Below, piece by piece: positions 44,156 through 51,933 of a stretch of DNA of 64,000 bases. A program made the translations under genes and the position numbers. The stretch covers positions 1 through 64,000 of the forward strand of contig NZ_SOFH01000006.1 of NCBI RefSeq assembly GCF_004402495.1, read 5' to 3'. The stretch comes from Cryobacterium sp. HLT2-28. GTDB lineage: Bacteria; Actinomycetota; Actinomycetes; Actinomycetales; Microbacteriaceae. Under the pieces are notes generated by a model. It was not told the DNA's origin, did not search any database, and saw only the letters and a program-made list of their open reading frames with translations. The number at the start of each line of letters is the position of its first letter. Position 1 is the stretch's first letter.

Positions 44156-46039
44156 CTAGTCCTCGCGGAGGTTGCGCCGTTCGGCCTCGACCCGTACCAG
44201 TTCACGCTGGAGCGCCACGTAGACCTCGCGGTTGGCGGCATCCGCTCGCTGCAGCCGACCGAGAAGTTCAGCCTTCTGGCGGAGCAAGTCCTTGTCGACG
44301 AGGGCGACCGTGATGTCTCGGACGTAGCGGCTGATCTCCCGTTCGCTGCGCTCGGGCAGCGGGGCCATGGCCAGCTCCTTGACCAGGTTCTCCAGCGGTG
44401 GCGGCACGTCCGCCACGATCCGGTCCAGCCAGTCGGGGGCGTCGTGGTGTTCGAGGTTGGCCGCGATCGCATCCCGCACGACCGCGAGTGAGGGCTGGGC
44501 GAAACTGGTCAGCACCGCGCGCTGGATCAGGTCCGCGCCGACCAGGACGGGGCGCTGGAGCATGGCCATCAGCCCGTCCCGTTCCAGCCGGGTGACCGGG
44601 TCCGTGGACAGGTTGGTCATCGAGAACGGTTGCTCGCGCGGCGCCTCGTCCGTGCCGTCGCGGCGTGCACCGTCGTGGCTCTGCCCCGCCGAGTTCCCGG
44701 CGCCGGCGGAGCGGGTGCGCGACAGCGACGTCGAGACGGCCCTGGCAACCTCGCCCAGCTCCATGCCGAGCATGCGAGCCAGTTCGTGCGTGTAGCCGGG
44801 GCGGAGGGCCGGGTCGCGGATGTCGGCGACGAGCGGAGCGGCCTGGCGCAACGCCCCGACCCTCCCTTCGACGGTGTCGAGGTTGTACTGGCCGAGCAAC
44901 TGCCGGATCATGAACTCGAACATCGGCTTCTTCGAGTCGACGAGTCGGCGCACCGCGTCGTCGCCGCGGTGCAGGCGCAGGTCGCACGGGTCCAGGCCCT
45001 CGGGGGCGACGGCGACGAACGTCTGGGCGGAGAAGCGCTGCTCCTCGCTGAAGGCGCGCATCGCAGCCTTCTGGCCCGCGGCATCCGGGTCGAAGGTGAA
45101 GACGACCTCGCCGACGCCGCTGTCATCACCGAGGACGCGGCGCAGCACCTTGATGTGATCGACCCCGAAGGAGGTGCCGCAGGTGGCGACCGCGGTGGTC
45201 ACGCCGGCGAGATGGCAGGCCATCACGTCGGTGTAGCCCTCGACCACGACGACCTGGTGGTTGCGCGAGATGTCGCGCTTGGCGAGGTCGAGGCCGTAGA
45301 GCACCTGGGCCTTGTGGTAGATCGGTGTCTCCGGCGTGTTGAGGTACTTCGGGCCTTTGTCGTCCTCGAGCAGCTTGCGCGCGCCGAAGCCGATGGTCTG
45401 CCCGGTGATGTCGCGGATCGGCCAGACGAGCCGACCGCGGAAACGGTCGTACACCCCGGTGGACCCCTCACGGCTGGAGACCAGTCCGGCCAGGGTCAGT
45501 TCCTCGGTCGTGTAGCCCTTGCCGCGGAGATGGTTGGTCAGTTCGTCCCAGCTCTTGGGCGCGAATCCGACGCCGAAGAGGGCCGCGGCCTGGGAGTCGA
45601 AGCCGCGTTCGCCGAGGAAGTTGCGGCCGACGAGGGCGCCGGCGCTGCCGAGGCGTTCGACGAAGAATTCGGCGGCCGCCTGGTTGGCCGCGTAGAGGCG
45701 AGACCGGTTGGTGTGGTCGGGGGCGTCGCCGCCGCCCTCGTAGTGCAGTTCGATCCCGACCCGGGCGGCGAGTCGCTCGACGGCCTCGCTGAAGGAGACG
45801 TGGTCCATCTTCTGCAGGAACGAGTACACGTCGCCGCTCTCGCCGCAGCCGAAGCAGTGGTAGAAACCGACCTGGGGGCGCACGTGGAAGCTCGGGCTGC
45901 GCTCGTCGTGGAAGGGGCACAGGCCCTTCATCGAGCCGACTCCGGCCGACTTCAGGGTGACGTAGTCGCCGACGATGTCCGCGATGTTCGTGCGGGCCTT
46001 GACCTCTTCGATGTCGTTTTGTCGAATCAGGCCAGCCAT
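44156..46039 (-). CDS. dnaG: DNA primase
   Basis: 627 residues. N-terminal zinc-binding CHC2 domain (CPFHDERSPSFHVRPQVGFYHCFGCGE read in two parts), followed by the primase catalytic core with FRGRLVWPIRD and the Toprim segment VVVEGYTDVMACH with the acidic FDPDAAG motif. C-terminal helicase-binding helices follow. Synthesises RNA primers for replication. Downstream of dgt with a 25-base gap on the minus strand. Confidence 0.97.
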   Translation of the reverse strand: MAGLIRQNDIEEVKARTNIADIVGDYVTLKSAGVGSMKGLCPFHDERSPSFHVRPQVGFYHCFGCGESGDVYSFLQKMDHVSFSEAVERLAARVGIELHYEGGGDAPDHTNRSRLYAANQAAAEFFVERLGSAGALVGRNFLGERGFDSQAAALFGVGFAPKSWDELTNHLRGKGYTTEELTLAGLVSSREGSTGVYDRFRGRLVWPIRDITGQTIGFGARKLLEDDKGPKYLNTPETPIYHKAQVLYGLDLAKRDISRNHQVVVVEGYTDVMACHLAGVTTAVATCGTSFGVDHIKVLRRVLGDDSGVGEVVFTFDPDAAGQKAAMRAFSEEQRFSAQTFVAVAPEGLDPCDLRLHRGDDAVRRLVDSKKPMFEFMIRQLLGQYNLDTVEGRVGALRQAAPLVADIRDPALRPGYTHELARMLGMELGEVARAVSTSLSRTRSAGAGNSAGQSHDGARRDGTDEAPREQPFSMTNLSTDPVTRLERDGLMAMLQRPVLVGADLIQRAVLTSFAQPSLAVVRDAIAANLEHHDAPDWLDRIVADVPPPLENLVKELAMAPLPERSEREISRYVRDITVALVDKDLLRQKAELLGRLQRADAANREVYVALQRELVRVEAERRNLRED

Positions 46040-46064: not shown

Positions 46065-47312
46065 TCAGTTCTGCACGAGACGTTCATACCAGGCCAGCGC
46101 GGACTGGTCGGTGAGGCTGGCAACCTGGTCGACGACGACGCGCTTGCGGGCCGCGTCGTCTACGGCCGCGTGCCAGTCCTCGCGGAAGCCGGCGTCGAGG
46201 TGCTCGTCGCCGGTGGCGTGCAGGCGCTCGGCCAGCAGGGTGAGCACCTGCCGCTGCTGCTGGTAGATGGGCTGGCGGGTGTTCTTCGACATCACGAAGG
46301 CGGCGACGATGCCCTTGAGCACGGCGATCTCCGCCTGGACCTCGCGGGGAACGACGACGTGGGCGCCGAAGCGGATGAGTTGCTCCCCCGAGTACGCCTG
46401 ACGGGTGGCCCGCACCGCTGCGCCGGAGAACCGGCCGATCAGCTGGCTGGTGAGGTTCTTCAGCCGCCCCTGGTCGCGCCGCCCGGCGGTCCAGCCGTGC
46501 AACCAGTAGTCGAGGGCGCCCAGCCGGTCATAGGCCTGCGCCAGTTCGGCGTGCGAGACGGCGCCGCCGATCCAGGAGTGCATCGAGGAGACGAGTTCGG
46601 TGCTGGCCCGCCCACCGAGTTCGGCGATGTCCAGGTACCCGTTGACGACGGCGTCTTCGAAGTCGTGCACGGAGTAGGCGATGTCGTCGGACAGGTCCAT
46701 CACCTGGGCCTCGATGCAGAGGCGGCGCTCCGGCGCGCCCGCGCGCATCCATTCGAAGGCGGCGATGTCGTCGTGGTAGAAACCGAACTTGGCCCGGCCG
46801 CTGGGATCGGCGACGGAGGAGTCCTCCGGCCAGGGGTACTTGCAGCTGGCGTCGACGCTGGCCCGGGTCAGGTTCAGCCCGTAGCTGCGGCCGTCGTCGC
46901 CGAAGACCTTCGGTTCGAGCCGGGTGAGCAGCCGCAGGGTCTGCGCGTTGCCCTCGAAGCCGCCGATGTCCAGGGACCACGCGTTGAGCGCCTTCTCCCC
47001 GTTGTGACCGAACGGCGGATGCCCGATGTCGTGCGCGAGGCAGGCCGTATCGACGATGTCGGGGTCGAGGCCGAGCCGGAGCGCGAGCTCCCGGCCGATC
47101 TGGGCGACCTCGAGCGAGTGGGTGAGCCGGTTGCGGGCGAAGTCGAGGCCGGCGGTGGGACTGAGCACCTGGGTCTTGGCTGCGAGGCGGCGCAGGGCGC
47201 TGGAGTGCAGGAGCCGGGCCCGGTCGCGCGCGAAGTCGCTGCGGCGCGAGCCGTGCACCTCCGGCAGCCAGCGTTCCTCGTCTGTGCTGCTGTACCCGGT
47301 TTCGTTAGCCAC
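46065..47312 (-). CDS. dgt: deoxyguanosinetriphosphate triphosphohydrolase
   Basis: 415 residues. HD-domain phosphohydrolase: RNRLTHSLEVAQIGRELA, HDIGHPPFGHNGE (metal-binding HD) and DLSDDIAYSVHDFEDA. It removes triphosphate from dGTP and other dNTPs. It overlaps the end of dusB by eight bases and precedes dnaG, the usual actinobacterial dusB-dgt-dnaG arrangement. Confidence 0.95.
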   Translation of the reverse strand: MANETGYSSTDEERWLPEVHGSRRSDFARDRARLLHSSALRRLAAKTQVLSPTAGLDFARNRLTHSLEVAQIGRELALRLGLDPDIVDTACLAHDIGHPPFGHNGEKALNAWSLDIGGFEGNAQTLRLLTRLEPKVFGDDGRSYGLNLTRASVDASCKYPWPEDSSVADPSGRAKFGFYHDDIAAFEWMRAGAPERRLCIEAQVMDLSDDIAYSVHDFEDAVVNGYLDIAELGGRASTELVSSMHSWIGGAVSHAELAQAYDRLGALDYWLHGWTAGRRDQGRLKNLTSQLIGRFSGAAVRATRQAYSGEQLIRFGAHVVVPREVQAEIAVLKGIVAAFVMSKNTRQPIYQQQRQVLTLLAERLHATGDEHLDAGFREDWHAAVDDAARKRVVVDQVASLTDQSALAWYERLVQN

Positions 47313-48480
47313 CGCTGGTATCCCCTTCGCCCTCGGTCAGGTTGGCCCGTTCCGCGCCGGCGATCTCCCGGGAGTCGAGCCAGTGTTCGGGCAGCGACGT
47401 CTTCTTCGGGCTCCCGGCTCGGCCGCGCGGACCCTCGGCGCCGACGCCGGGGTATTCCTGCTGCCAGTCCAGGGTGCCGAGCAGGTCGTCGAGCTGCGCG
47501 AGCGACACGACCGAGGCGAGGCTCGCGCGCAGGTCGCCGCCGACCGGGTAGCCCTTGAAATACCAGGCGACGTGCTTGCGGATGTCGCGGCAGGCCCGCT
47601 CTTCGCTGTCGAAGAATTCGGTGAGCAGTTCGGCGTGCCGGCGGAAGGTCTCGGCGACGCGGCCGAGGTTCGGCTGGATCAGCGCGGTCTGCTCCCCGGT
47701 CGACTGGCCGCGGAAGGCCCCCGCGAGGTCACCGAACAGCCACGGCCGGCCCAGGCAGCCGCGGCCGACGACGACGCCGTCGCAGCCGGTCTCAGCGACC
47801 ATGCGCAGGGCGTCGTCGGCGGACCAGATGTCACCGTTGCCGAGCACGGGCACGCTGGTGATGGTGTTCTTGAGGGTCGTGATCGCCGACCAGTCGGCCA
47901 CGCCGGAGTAGTGCTCTGACGCGGTGCGCGCGTGGAGCGCGATCGCTGAGACGCCGGCCCCTTCAGCGGCCTTGCCTGCCTCCAGGTAGGTGAGGTGGTC
48001 GGAATCGATGCCCTTGCGCATCTTCACCGTGACCGGGACGGCGCCGGCCGCGGTGACGGCGGCTTCGACGATCTGCCGGAACAGGCCGAGCTTCCACGGG
48101 AGGGCAGCTCCGCCGCCCTTGCGGGTGACCTTGGGCACCGGGCAGCCGAAGTTGAGGTCGATGTGGTCGGCCCGGTCTTCCGCGACGAGCATGGTGACCG
48201 CATCGGACACGGTCTTGGGGTCGACCCCGTACAGCTGGATCGACCGGGTGGTTTCACTCTCATGATGGTTGATCAGACGCATCGATTCGGGCGTGCGCTC
48301 GACGAGCGCCCGGGAGGTGATCATCTCGCTGACGTAGAGCCCAGCGCCGAATTCACGGCAGAGCCTGCGAAAGGCGGTGTTGGTGATGCCGGCCATCGGC
48401 GCGAGCACGACGGGGACATCCAGCGTGAGGGGGCCGATCGAGAGCGGCGCGGCGCGGCTGGTCGCAGTTTCAGGAATCAT
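47305..48480 (-). CDS. dusB: tRNA-dihydrouridine synthase (DusB)
   Basis: 391 residues from the ATG at 48480, with GGGAGAAT upstream. TIM-barrel FMN enzyme: VVLAPMAGITNTAFRRLC, HIDLNFGCPVPKVTRKGGGAAL (catalytic Cys), VTVKMRKGI, GVSAIALHARTA and VVGRGCLGRPWLF. It reduces uridine in tRNA D-loops. Translationally linked to dgt. Confidence 0.95.
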   Translation of the reverse strand: MIPETATSRAAPLSIGPLTLDVPVVLAPMAGITNTAFRRLCREFGAGLYVSEMITSRALVERTPESMRLINHHESETTRSIQLYGVDPKTVSDAVTMLVAEDRADHIDLNFGCPVPKVTRKGGGAALPWKLGLFRQIVEAAVTAAGAVPVTVKMRKGIDSDHLTYLEAGKAAEGAGVSAIALHARTASEHYSGVADWSAITTLKNTITSVPVLGNGDIWSADDALRMVAETGCDGVVVGRGCLGRPWLFGDLAGAFRGQSTGEQTALIQPNLGRVAETFRRHAELLTEFFDSEERACRDIRKHVAWYFKGYPVGGDLRASLASVVSLAQLDDLLGTLDWQQEYPGVGAEGPRGRAGSPKKTSLPEHWLDSREIAGAERANLTEGEGDTSGG

Positions 48481-48562
48481 TTCGTTCAATTCTCCCAGAC
48501 CCGGGCGACACCGCTCGACGCCCGCGGTGAACGGCGTGAAGCGGTGTCGTCGAGCGGGGTGT

Positions 48563-48694
48563 TCAGATTCCGCAGGAGCCGCCGCCGCAGCATCCGCCGC
48601 CGGCATTGCCGAGCAGTTCGATGGTGGGGACGGGAGCCGCTGCCGGGGTGCCGACCGGGGTGGTCGCCTCGGCGGTGCTGGTCTGTTCGGTCAT
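48563..48694 (-). CDS. 43-residue Cys-rich peptide coupled to frnE
   Basis: From the ATG at 48694, overlapping the frnE stop (ATGA), to the stop at 48563. The N-terminal 25 residues are Thr/Ala/Pro-rich. Residues 26-43 read ELLGNAGGGCCGGGSCGI, with Cys36, Cys37 and Cys41. No signal peptide or membrane segment. The coupling to a FrnE-type oxidoreductase suggests a redox partner or a metal-binding helper. It is too short for many gene callers. Confidence 0.75.
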   Translation of the reverse strand: MTEQTSTAEATTPVGTPAAAPVPTIELLGNAGGGCCGGGSCGI

Positions 48695-49350
48695 TTGTTC
48701 TTCTCCTCGGATTTCTCGGTGGCGGCCTGGCGGAGAGCCTGCGCAAAGGTATCAGGGTCCTGGGCTCCGGAGATCCCGTACTTCCCGTCGATGACGAAGA
48801 AGGGAACGCCCTGGATGCCGTAGGCGTTGGCCTGGGCGACGTCGGCCTTGACGTCGGCCAGGTAGTCGTGGGCGGTGAGCGCCCTGACCACGTCGGCCCG
48901 GTCGAGGCCGATTTCGGCGGCCAGGTCGGCGAGGTCTTCGATCCGGCCCACGTGCAGGCCGTCGACGAAGTAGGCCTTGAGCAGTCGCTCCTTCATCTCG
49001 AGCTGGCGCCCGTGTGCCTTCGCGTAGTGGAGCAACTCGTGCGAGATGACGGTGTTCGTCTGGTGCACGGAGTCGTAGTCGTAGTGCAGGCCGACGCTTT
49101 CGGCGATCCCGGTGACCCGCTCGAGCATCTCCTCGACCTGCGCCACGGGCAGGCCCTTGCGCTGGCTGAGGTAGTCGACCGGGCTGCCGTCGAAGTCGAC
49201 GGGGGTATCGGGCGCCAGTTCGAAGCTGTGGTATTCGACCTCGACGTCACCGTCGAAGAGGGCCGCGCCGGCCTCGAATTTGCGCTTTCCGATGTAGCAC
49301 CAGGGGCACTGCACGTCGGACCAGATGTCTACTTTGATGGTTTCGCTCAC
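48691..49350 (-). CDS. frnE: DsbA-family oxidoreductase, FrnE type
   Basis: 219 residues. Begins MSETIKVDIWSDVQCPWCYIG; CPWC (residues about 15-18) is the FrnE-type redox site. The cis-Pro segment is GIQGVPFFVIDGKYGISGAQ. No signal peptide, so it is cytosolic; FrnE-like proteins take part in thiol/disulfide reactions and stress tolerance. The gene overlaps the 43-residue Cys peptide gene by four bases and follows the heliorhodopsin gene by 75 bases. Confidence 0.92.
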   Translation of the reverse strand: MSETIKVDIWSDVQCPWCYIGKRKFEAGAALFDGDVEVEYHSFELAPDTPVDFDGSPVDYLSQRKGLPVAQVEEMLERVTGIAESVGLHYDYDSVHQTNTVISHELLHYAKAHGRQLEMKERLLKAYFVDGLHVGRIEDLADLAAEIGLDRADVVRALTAHDYLADVKADVAQANAYGIQGVPFFVIDGKYGISGAQDPDTFAQALRQAATEKSEEKNK

Positions 49351-49425
49351 TCTGAGGCCAACCGGCGGCGCGCCCCAGTATTCCCGTCCCGGCGGTCGAT
49401 CCTGTCGAGACCAGGCCCCGCGCGG

Positions 49426-50229
49426 TCAGCCCGTTATCGCGGGAATGATCGCCCCCGAGAAGACCTGCCAGGCCAGGGCTGTCTTGGCGACCAGGCTCAG
49501 CGTGATGTACGTGCGCTCCCCCTGAAGATAGCTCTTCCACTTTCCGACCTGCTTGTACTGCAACCACTGGTTGATGGCAAAGGTGTTGAAGAAGACGAAG
49601 AGCGAGATGACGATGCCGACGACGAAACCGGGCGCCGCAACCTCGTTCGCGCTGCCCGGCCGGAGAAAGTAGATCAGAATCAGGATCCAGGGCACGATGC
49701 CCACCATCGACCCGAAGATGAACGGCAGCATTCCGCCGGATCCCGGCTGCTCGTACTTCTCTTGCAGGGCACCGAACAGGATCATCGCGGCGTTCACCGC
49801 GAAGACGGCGAACAGCGCCGCGATGTCGGTCACGCCGTTGATGGCCAGAATCAGCCAGATCATGATTGAGGAGCTCAGCGAGTATTCGGTCCAGCGGAAG
49901 TAGTTGCGGCTCTGCAGCAGCCCGCCCTTGTACCGGCCGAAGAACCAGGGGCTCGAGACGAGGAAATGGAAGAACGCGCTCAACGCCAGGAACGCCACCA
50001 CGCCGATTCCGATGTTCACTTCGAACACCGTGACACGCTCGGGCGGTATGGGGACTCCGGGAGGACCGGCCAGGTAGTCGGCCGTGACGGCGAAGAGAAC
50101 CTGCGAACTGAGCATTAGGAGCACGATCGCGAAGCCGATGGCCTGGAGAAGGTGCAGGCTCCCCGCGACGAGGTTGTAAACCCTCAGCCGGTCGATCTGC
50201 TGGTCAGAGGTGTATGTCTTCTTCGCCAT
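49426..50229 (-). CDS. heliorhodopsin
   Basis: 267 residues with seven hydrophobic segments and the N-terminal sequence of the heliorhodopsin family (DRLRVYNLVAGSLHLLQA). Retinal-binding Lys249 lies in SLVAKTALAWQVF (TM7). TM3 reads FRWTEYSLSSSIMIWL with the counterion Glu115. His26 and His88 correspond to conserved histidines of the family. Heliorhodopsins have an inverted topology (N-terminus inside) and a long photocycle; no ion transport was found for most. RBS GGGAGG six bases before the ATG. No retinal-synthesis gene lies in this window. Confidence 0.95.
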   Translation of the reverse strand: MAKKTYTSDQQIDRLRVYNLVAGSLHLLQAIGFAIVLLMLSSQVLFAVTADYLAGPPGVPIPPERVTVFEVNIGIGVVAFLALSAFFHFLVSSPWFFGRYKGGLLQSRNYFRWTEYSLSSSIMIWLILAINGVTDIAALFAVFAVNAAMILFGALQEKYEQPGSGGMLPFIFGSMVGIVPWILILIYFLRPGSANEVAAPGFVVGIVISLFVFFNTFAINQWLQYKQVGKWKSYLQGERTYITLSLVAKTALAWQVFSGAIIPAITG

Positions 50230-50395
50230 GATTGGCCTCCCTCGCCTGATATTGGGGCCAACCTAGCATTGATCCGATCTCGGCCCCTCCGCTGTTCGAG
50301 CCGGTCGAGACCCGGCAGCCACGGCGGGCGCGGGCTGCGGAAAGGGGCTCGGGCTGGGGCTGGACGGGTCGCGACGGGCGGGGCCGGCCCGGGAC

Positions 50396-51214
50396 TCAGG
50401 CGGAGGGAGCGTCGACGGCGCCGCCGTAGCGGCGGTTCCGGGTCGCGTAGAGCTCGATCGCCCGCCACAGGTCGACCCGGCTGAAGTCCGGCCACAGGGT
50501 GTCGAGGAAGACCATCTCCGCGTAGGCGCTCTGCCAGAGCAGGAAGTTGCTGGTGCGCTGCTCCCCCGAACTGCGCACGAACAGGTCGACGTCGGGAAGG
50601 TCGGCGGTGTACAGGTTCCGCTGGATCGACTTCTCGGTGATGCCGGACGGCTTCAACCGGCCGGCCGCGACGTCCTCGGCCAGCGCGCGCACGGCATCCG
50701 CGATTTCGGTGCGCCCGCCGTAGTTCACGCACATGGTCAGGGTGAGCACGTCGTTGCCGGCGGTCAGGCGTTCGGCGAACTGCAGCTCGTTGATGACGGA
50801 TGCCCAGAGCCGGGGCTTCCGCCCGGCCCACCGCACGCGCACCCCCCATTCGTTGAGCTGGTCACGCCTGCGGTGCAGCACGTCCCGGTTGAACCCCATC
50901 AGGAAGCGCACCTCGTCGGGCGAGCGCTTCCAGTTCTCGGTGGAGAACGCGTAGACGCTGAGGTGCTTGACGCCGATCTGGATGGCGCCGGCGACGACGT
51001 CGAGCAGCGCCGCCTCCCCCGCCTTGTGGCCTTCCACCCGTGGCAGGCCCCGGGCATTCGCCCACCGGCCGTTGCCGTCCATCACCACGGCGACATGCTC
51101 GGGGACGACCTTCAGCGGAAGGGCCGGCGGGTAGAGCCCGGTCCAGTCCAGGGGCTTGAACGGCATCGCGTCCCTATGGGTGAACGGTTTGGGCGCGAAC
51201 GGATTCGGGGTCAT
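50396..51214 (-). CDS. uppS: isoprenyl transferase (undecaprenyl/decaprenyl-diphosphate synthase family)
   Basis: 272 residues from the ATG at 51214, overlapping the recO stop by four bases. Catalytic [12 protein letters not shown] with the Asp, [12 protein letters not shown], then [19 protein letters not shown] and the C-terminal [24 protein letters not shown]. It makes the cis-polyprenyl diphosphate carrier for cell-wall synthesis. Cytosolic; part of the recO-uppS operon. Confidence 0.95.
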
Positions 51215-51933
51215 CGACTGACATGCTCCAACGATCGGAGGCCTCGGCCGAGGTGCCACTGCGTGTACGCGGCGACCACCCCGGTGGCCTGGGCTCTGGT
51301 CTTCTCAGGGGTTGATTCGGCGTGGTCCCAGTCACCGGTGAGCAGGGAGCTGAGCAGGGCGATCGTCTGGGCGTCGAGCCTCGGCGAGCCGGGGGCGGCG
51401 CAGTCGTCGCAGACGATCCCGCCGACCTGCACGACGATCGCGGAGTGGCTGCCCTGGGCGCCGCACCGGGCGCAGTCCTGGAAGCTGGGCGCCCAGCCGG
51501 CCATCGACAGGGCGCGCAACAGGTAGGAGTCGAGGGTGAGGCCGGCGCCGTGCTCCTGGCGGGACAGCGACCTCAGCGCGCCGACCAGCAGCAGGTACTG
51601 CTGCAGCGAGCCTTCGGCCTCGGTCAGCTTGTCGGCGGTTTCGACCATGGCGCTGGCCGCGGTGTAGCTGGGGTAGTCGGCGGTGATCTGCGCACCGTAC
51701 GACCCGATCGACTCGGCCTGGGTGATGATGTCGAGGCTGCGGCCCTCGTAGAGCTGCACATCCGCGACCATGAACGGCTCAAGCCGCGCCCCGAACTTCG
51801 ACGCGGTGCGCCGCACTCCCTTGGCCACCGCGCGCACCTTGCCGTGCTTGCGGGTGAGCATGGTGACGATGCGGTCGGCTTCACCCAGCTTCTGGGTGCG
51901 CAGCACGACGGCTTCATCACGGTAGACAGGCAC
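51211..51933 (-). CDS. recO: DNA repair protein RecO
   Basis: 240 residues from the GTG at 51933 (V-P-V-Y-R-D-E-A), in place of an ATG at 51975. N-terminal OB fold ([41 protein letters not shown]) and a zinc site of two Cys pairs (CARCG, CDDC). RecO helps load RecA in recombinational repair. Coupled to uppS. Confidence 0.95.

Follow-up and report, generated by a model that had tools for sequence, protein, structure and literature searches.

A heliorhodopsin gene between uppS and frnE in Cryobacterium sp. HLT2-28 and its probable independence of the redox neighbour

The heliorhodopsin gene and its neighbourhood

It is common to guess the partner of a heliorhodopsin (HeR) from the adjacent gene, and according to passages of one study gene context links HeRs to redox genes in other lineages and has been used to argue for sensory and oxidative-stress roles (PMC8612252). 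In a stretch of 64,000 nucleotides from Cryobacterium sp. HLT2-28 (NZ_SOFH01000006.1, positions 1 to 64,000, hereafter the window) a HeR gene precedes frnE, which encodes a thiol oxidoreductase and is followed by a gene for a small Cys-rich peptide. A first-pass annotation of this DNA took the arrangement as a hint of a link between light and redox or oxidative stress. Is the redox neighbour indeed the partner of this HeR? In our opinion a single neighbourhood can mislead, as it does here: frnE belongs to the core genes and carries a stress-type promoter motif of its own, and the opsin sits at different places in different species. The genes concerned are:

50396 to 51259, minus strand: uppS, undecaprenyl diphosphate synthase (PF01255, E 2.3e-79), core neighbour upstream of the insert
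49426 to 50229, minus strand: HeR gene, open reading frame of 267 aa with ATG start, carrying Lys249, Glu115, His26 and His88
48691 to 49350, minus strand: frnE, DsbA-like thiol oxidoreductase with CPWC (PF01323, E 2.9e-40), core neighbour outside the HeR unit
48563 to 48694, minus strand: gene of a Cys-rich peptide of 43 aa, its start overlapping the frnE stop by 4 nt
47305 to 48483, minus strand: dus, tRNA-dihydrouridine synthase (PF01207, E 5.2e-85), core neighbour

The placing of the HeR gene between uppS and frnE, 75 bp before the latter, agrees with these coordinates, as does the presence of the Cys-rich gene; the spacer on the uppS side measures 166 bp. The claim of an intact heliorhodopsin of 267 residues is borne out by the matches to Pfam PF18761 (E 9.9e-93, 310 bits against a cut-off of 26.7) and to the NCBIfam equivalog NF038020, 'heliorhodopsin HeR' (E 4e-101, 337.8 bits against a cut-off of 100), and no further PF18761 match was found in the 3.72-Mb genome. 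The protein aligns over nearly its full length to the solved heliorhodopsins 48C12 and TaHeR. Lys249, Glu115, His26 and His88 fall on K241, E107, H23 and H80 of 48C12 (6su3), and TaHeR (6is6) has Lys, Glu, His and His there too, which confirms the residues that the first-pass annotation had named, including Lys249, one of the points on which it had let its reading stand or fall. Over the fold, 48C12 (PDB 6su3, 6su4, 6uh3) is 53-56% identical, matches the predicted model with TM-scores of 0.83-0.93 and shares the lysine, the counterion and the histidines, but it has Val106 beside the counterion where the Cryobacterium protein has Thr114; at this position Thr was found in 44 and Val in 51 of 98 relatives. 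Invariant in all 98 aligned sequences are Lys249, Glu115, His26, His88 and Ser84, and also Arg112, Trp113, Asn146, Glu157 and Ser245. The retinal lysine of helix 7 stands in an SxxxK motif (S245 to K249) that aligns to 48C12 and TaHeR, and SxxxK is described in passages of PMC9601134 as a HeR motif. An AlphaFold model (mean pLDDT 79.9, pTM 0.77) found heliorhodopsins as all ten of its best PDB matches (TM-scores 0.81-0.93), followed at ranks 11-15 by type-1 rhodopsins and a channelrhodopsin (0.51-0.60). By model cut-offs, residues and fold this is an ordinary, intact HeR gene, and we assume by homology the inverted HeR topology with the N-terminus in the cytoplasm. Moreover, the comparison with the HeR of Microcella pacifica (L035), in which 93.6% of the residues are kept although substitutions have changed 82 of the 131 fourfold sites compared, indicates strong purifying selection across genera. 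Passages of two papers that concern Cryobacterium and heliorhodopsin (PMC12227055, PMC8591293) contain no description of this gene. The second of them ascribes a putative HeR to Aurantimicrobium photophilum, a species whose genome editing is announced in PMC11577799.

The neighbours form a unit of their own. FrnE is closely related to a solved protein titled 'FrnE protein' (5cp1, E 1.1e-53), which we take to be that of Deinococcus radiodurans, and its gene is present in all 57 Cryobacterium genomes, HeR-bearing or HeR-less. Directly before frnE lies uppS in 25 of 30 frnE loci, with a spacer of 40-291 bp; two of the 30 could not be judged, one contig starting near frnE and one lacking a uppS match. 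In 28 of the 30 loci frnE is followed by a match to a peptide akin to the 43-aa product, which ends in GGGCCGGGSCGI in the window. Thus uppS, frnE, the 43-aa gene and dus are a genus-wide block, usually without HeR, and the 43-aa gene belongs with frnE and not with HeR. The HeR gene stands upstream of frnE in three of the 30 loci, namely the window, G438 and G399, of which the last is seen only up to a contig end before uppS.

The wider counts give the same picture. PF18761 matches were found in 33 of the 57 genus genomes and canonical HeRs (>300 bits) in 31, as read from the match table and including one gene with an internal stop (G423); in the family sample 80 of 398 genomes match, 77 of them over the cut-off. 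Among the 31 canonical-HeR genomes the distance between HeR and frnE is below 5 kb in three and above 500 kb on the same contig in seven, and in 21 the two genes are on different contigs. Within the nearest 80 of 280 HeR loci, where many flanks are short and ended by contig ends, frnE occurs in the flanks of two, both of this clade. The suggested link from frnE and the 43-aa gene to light and redox is hence not supported, with only 3 of 31 genomes having HeR within 5 kb of frnE, and the comparison of neighbourhoods that had been proposed as a check finds the adjacency confined to close kin, not conserved across lineages. Since the HeR gene appears to be lodged as a single gene, likely with its own promoter, between unrelated housekeeping genes, frnE is probably not its partner.

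Promoter motifs and changes of site

Three putative control elements bear on the transcription of the two genes:

50260 to 50268, minus strand: TGCTAGGTT, extended -10-like motif and predicted HeR promoter, 39 nt upstream of the start codon, without consensus -35
50236 to 50241, minus strand: GGGAGG, likely ribosome-binding site of HeR
49360 to 49385, minus strand: GGGAAT-N17-GTT, SigR/SigH-like promoter motif of frnE, between HeR and frnE

Of 91 distinct HeR leaders (98 tree rows minus 7 short or duplicate leaders), 42 have the pattern TGNTANNNT between -70 and -15, where shuffling expects 1.64, and it is present in 23 of 3919 control windows; its median distance from the start codon in the HeR leaders is 39 nt. 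Like the frnE motif it was chosen after viewing the sequences, and the loci are related. An extended -10 is a general promoter type, so the leader motif argues for a promoter of HeR's own and not for a special regulator. A scan of positions 48500-51300 returned no hexamer-pair sigma-70 promoter (0.2 expected), and a promoter with both hexamers was dropped as a candidate; it is therefore the leader motif that carries the prediction. The same scan detected no terminator-like site between HeR and frnE, and its lone terminator match lies inside HeR, at chance level.

Upstream of frnE, GGGAAT is present in 30 of 30 regions (0.735 expected) and GGGAAT-N17-19-GTT in 26 of 30 (0.01 expected), the expectations coming from mononucleotide shuffles and the loci being related. 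The bare pattern would be expected 0.72 times in the window, so that its weight comes from conservation. With N17 the spacer in the window is one shorter than the 18-19 of the Streptomyces SigR consensus, which passages of PMC9205884 give as GGAAT-N18-19-GTT, and passages of PMC8280269 report SigH dependence for a DsbA-like thiol reductase in Corynebacterium glutamicum. From the motifs two separate starts, one for HeR and one for frnE, appear likely, and some read-through from HeR into frnE may occur. A neighbourhood unique to one strain together with separate transcripts had been named beforehand as grounds for abandoning the redox link; the restriction to close kin is seen, and the separate transcripts are suggested by the motifs.

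The position of HeR changes within the genus. Thirty of the 31 canonical loci occupy 10 sites if one shared flank is sufficient and 17 if both must be shared, the strict count possibly splitting diverged sites. In G431, whose FrnE is 99% identical to that of the window, the uppS-frnE site has no HeR. Its HeR, 76% identical to the one in the window, lies elsewhere, at a site that is empty in the window's genome with the flanking genes 42 bp apart. Two sites, the uppS-frnE site and that of the G431 HeR, are thus filled or empty in near kin; in G344 (FrnE 97%) the PF18761 search gave no match. The two nearest genomes without HeR here (L113, L114) have instead in their uppS-frnE spacer another sequence, the imperfect palindrome TGCGTTCCGAATTCAGG...CCTGAATTCGG, which suggests an insertion-prone site.

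Among the best 80 of 280 relatives, the closest HeRs are those of Cryobacterium algoritolerans (99%) and Cryobacterium sp. PH31-AA6 (98%), and those of other Microbacteriaceae reach at most 94%. Both species (L032, L033) have HeR upstream of frnE as in the window, L032 with its uppS side cut by the contig end; their HeRs are more alike to that of the window than the flanks are, and the surrounding repeat content differs. Compared with C. algoritolerans, DNA identity is 98.8% in HeR, 94% in frnE and 92% in dus, and the differing fourfold sites are 4 of 142, 18 of 100 and 59 of 234, respectively. The identity profile peaks at about 50200-49000 with 96-100%; on the side of frnE, dus and beyond it is 86-95%, apart from two 150-bp windows near 46000 at 97-98%. 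We read the peak as a recombination tract between the HeR site of the window and that of C. algoritolerans. The latter species also has another HeR of canonical type, whose coding sequence is divided between two overlapping frames (L207, G399 C75); this could be a resident gene in decay since the exchange, or an error of sequencing.

A HeR tree of 98 rows, made by a quick method with SH-aLRT support only, places the window's gene in a 34-row clade (support 97) with Salinibacterium, Microcella, Frigoribacterium, Homoserinimonas and Arthrobacter. This clade contains 11 further Cryobacterium rows, and the G431 HeR lies outside it; within it, Arthrobacter rows, from another family, group with Homoserinimonas at 99. 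Such a tree fits HeR exchange between lineages, and it singles out no cross-genus donor of the window's gene.

How the gene first arrived at this place may be linked to short repeats that border the insert on both sides:

50289 to 50312, minus strand: copy of a 24-bp repeat with 3 mismatches, upstream side of the insert, same orientation as the other copy
49389 to 49412, minus strand: copy of the 24-bp repeat with 2 mismatches, downstream side of the HeR insert

Allowing 3 mismatches, the window contains these two copies and no more (0 expected), both beside HeR, for a repeat that was selected because it was found in the HeR spacers. Genome-wide there are 76 copies, whereas the reversed control gives 0. 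One uppS-frnE spacer without HeR (L116) has a related copy, and no internal repeats were detected within the two HeR spacers. The repeat may mark an insertion-prone spacer or may have served recombination. As a general carrier of HeR it was rejected, being within 400 bp of HeR only in five loci of this clade out of 137 scanned, a set that includes some genomes twice. A transposon- or integron-borne cassette was likewise discarded: no transposase or integrase was seen in the insert or among the flanking genes, the insert contains no other recognised gene, its flanks are uppS, frnE and dus, and only the short dispersed repeats border it.

The explanation that we favour, at somewhat better than even confidence, is that of a selected, relocating single-gene HeR with its own core promoter, now seated in the spacer between uppS and frnE and acting as a sensor in trans. 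Selection would keep the gene while it changes place in Cryobacterium. Between species it was exchanged at uppS-frnE by homologous recombination over the flanks, as the identity profile shows, whichever the direction, and its presumed first arrival may have made use of the dispersed repeats that border it. Judged from the motifs, transcription of HeR probably starts at an extended -10 promoter of its own and is separate from that of frnE, which retains a putative SigR/SigH-type thiol-stress motif. By homology, Lys249 should bind retinal and Glu115 serve as the counterion, and the protein, facing the cytoplasm, would sense light and modulate a partner whose gene lies elsewhere; such light sensing in trans is, in our analysis, the likeliest reading of its function.

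Retinal supply and other rhodopsins

Such a function raises the question of where the chromophore comes from. The first-pass annotation saw no retinal synthesis gene in its stretch, and this extends to the whole genome (G000), where neither Blh/Brp (PF15461) nor RPE65/carotenoid oxygenase (PF03055) gave a match; the PF15461 search had matches in 0 of 14 controls and 41 of 398 family genomes, the PF03055 search in two controls and one of the 57 genus genomes, not that of the window. A genome search for blh and crtY had been advised. It left blh unfound and turned up a Lycopene_cyc gene in a carotenoid cluster, together with a prenyl synthase, a phytoene-synthase-like protein, a phytoene desaturase and a UbiA prenyltransferase. 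The desaturase exceeds its NCBIfam cut-off, the prenyl synthase and the phytoene-synthase-like protein are below theirs, and PF00494 is over its own; of the two small open reading frames in the cluster, candidates for CrtYe/Yf or CrtYc/Yd, one is the Lycopene_cyc gene and the other has no Pfam match.

Besides HeR the genome encodes two type-1 rhodopsins. For the one of them that was compared with solved structures the best match was 9hfk, titled Rhodoluna lacicola actinorhodopsin, and helix 3 reads DWLLTVPLLL in this protein and in 9hfk, followed by LE or VE, which we take to be the proton-pump type. Throughout the genus blh is present in 17 of 57 genomes; the 33 genomes with a PF18761 match divide into 14 with and 19 without blh, and 16 of these 19 have a type-1 rhodopsin.

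Three rhodopsins without a known retinal-forming gene are an already known retinal puzzle. According to passages of the respective papers, Aurantimicrobium minutum (PMC7734400) and the Luna-1 subcluster (PMC12422013) have rhodopsins and carotenoid genes without blh, as is the case here, and the carotenoid cluster looks similar to the C50 pathway considered in the case of A. minutum; unlike these blh-less groups, Cryobacterium is split by blh. A. minutum, also of the Microbacteriaceae, contains retinal (PMC7734400), so that the absence of blh does not show the HeR of the window to be idle, and the Luna-1 authors favour retinal from outside (PMC12422013). Because no known retinal-forming enzyme was found despite two type-1 rhodopsins, retinal would have to come from outside or from another route than the known enzymes.

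A bolder variant, which we hold only tentatively, takes HeR as a self-sufficient single-gene light module with its own promoter, swapped and relocated among species of Cryobacterium, with a conserved partner in trans and with all three rhodopsins supplied with retinal by an enzyme of a C50 carotenoid pathway. If it is true, blh-bearing and blh-less HeR genomes are a natural experiment for finding the retinal enzyme. In any case, the genomes form a defined set that varies in HeR site, HeR type, type-1 rhodopsins and blh, which is useful for tracing the retinal source of blh-less actinobacteria and the trans partner that HeR needs.

Candidate partners and competing readings

For other HeRs the partners that PMC9529153, PMC9769723 and PMC11109279 report are a glutamine synthetase, a photolyase and a transporter of the ABC type. 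These systems (AbHeR with glutamine synthetase, TfHeR with photolyase, OcHeR with OmrDE) belong to the same family and offer the working mode that we propose here. AbHeR shares an operon with glutamine synthetase, whereas no conserved operon partner was found for the Cryobacterium HeR. Clustering of open reading frames over the best 80 of 280 HeR loci yielded mostly lineage-specific contexts, with two recurring families: a TerC gene in the flanks of 10 loci (confirmed by PF03741 in four of four tested) and a DoxX-like gene in the flanks of 12 (by PF07681 in one of one tested). A TerC-family gene lies less than 500 bp from HeR, in several orientations, in L037, L040, L045, L046, L052, L056, L063, L098, L142 and L017. 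TerC is hence a recurrent partner candidate. It is conceivable, albeit rather unlikely, that the partner which HeR modulates in this clade is a membrane protein of the TerC family (metal transport) or a DoxX-like one, which in the window's genome would be encoded elsewhere. The occurrence of these genes in the flanks of the best 80 loci, at varied orientations and distances, is in line with it, as is the listing of the TerC family, in passages of PMC11109279, as one of ten recurrent HeR operon partners. However, neither gene was detected in the window (tblastn at 1e-3), and many loci are related, so that the counts are plain tallies that are not independent.

Since the cell would make no retinal, the opsin might do its work without it, for instance by scrambling phospholipids; this we place lower still. 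The missing Blh and RPE65 matches would suit such a role, and actinorhodopsin is reported in passages of PMC12805836 to scramble independently of retinal. But the word 'heliorhodopsin' is absent from that text, a retinal-free role has no need of the lysine and counterion that are invariant in 98 sequences, and a blh-less Microbacteriaceae strain does contain retinal (PMC7734400).

We give even less credit to the reading from which we started, a light/redox operon of HeR, frnE and the 43-aa gene in which HeR controls the thiol oxidoreductase. Its attraction is evident: the two genes share a strand and a gap of 75 bp free of terminator-like sites, the arrangement is kept in three species, and glutaredoxin, glutathione peroxidase and catalase genes are near HeR elsewhere, as passages of PMC8612252 describe. 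Nevertheless, the arrangement is confined to 3 of 57 genus genomes (3 of 31 if those with a canonical HeR alone are counted), frnE flanks only two among the nearest 80 of 280 HeR loci, frnE and the 43-aa gene hold their order and promoter motif without HeR, and the window's HeR resembles its counterpart in C. algoritolerans more closely than the flanks do theirs. On synteny and motifs, a shared HeR-frnE operon is not favoured. Finally, that HeR is a neutral hitchhiker without present use is hardly credible, its patchy presence, changing sites and broken genus copies (G399 C75 and C68, G404, and G423 with one internal stop) being outweighed by a conserved leader motif and the signs of strong purifying selection across genera.

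In the Microbacteriaceae we also noticed 23 divergent HeR-like paralogs (L205, L211, L216, L249-L268) that have Lys249 and His88 in 0 of 23 and His26 in 3 of 23; in several of them helix 4 still reads RW.E. The lysine is retained by some other distant copies (L208, L212-L214). In the family sample, blh is present in 19 of 28 genomes with a divergent HeR copy, 22 of which were inspected for the lysine, and in 22 of 370 without one, in Fisher tests that ignore kinship. Two distant HeRs, L208 (G399), 41% identical to that of the window, and L215 (G404), broken into two frames, adjoin a blh-family gene on the opposite strand.
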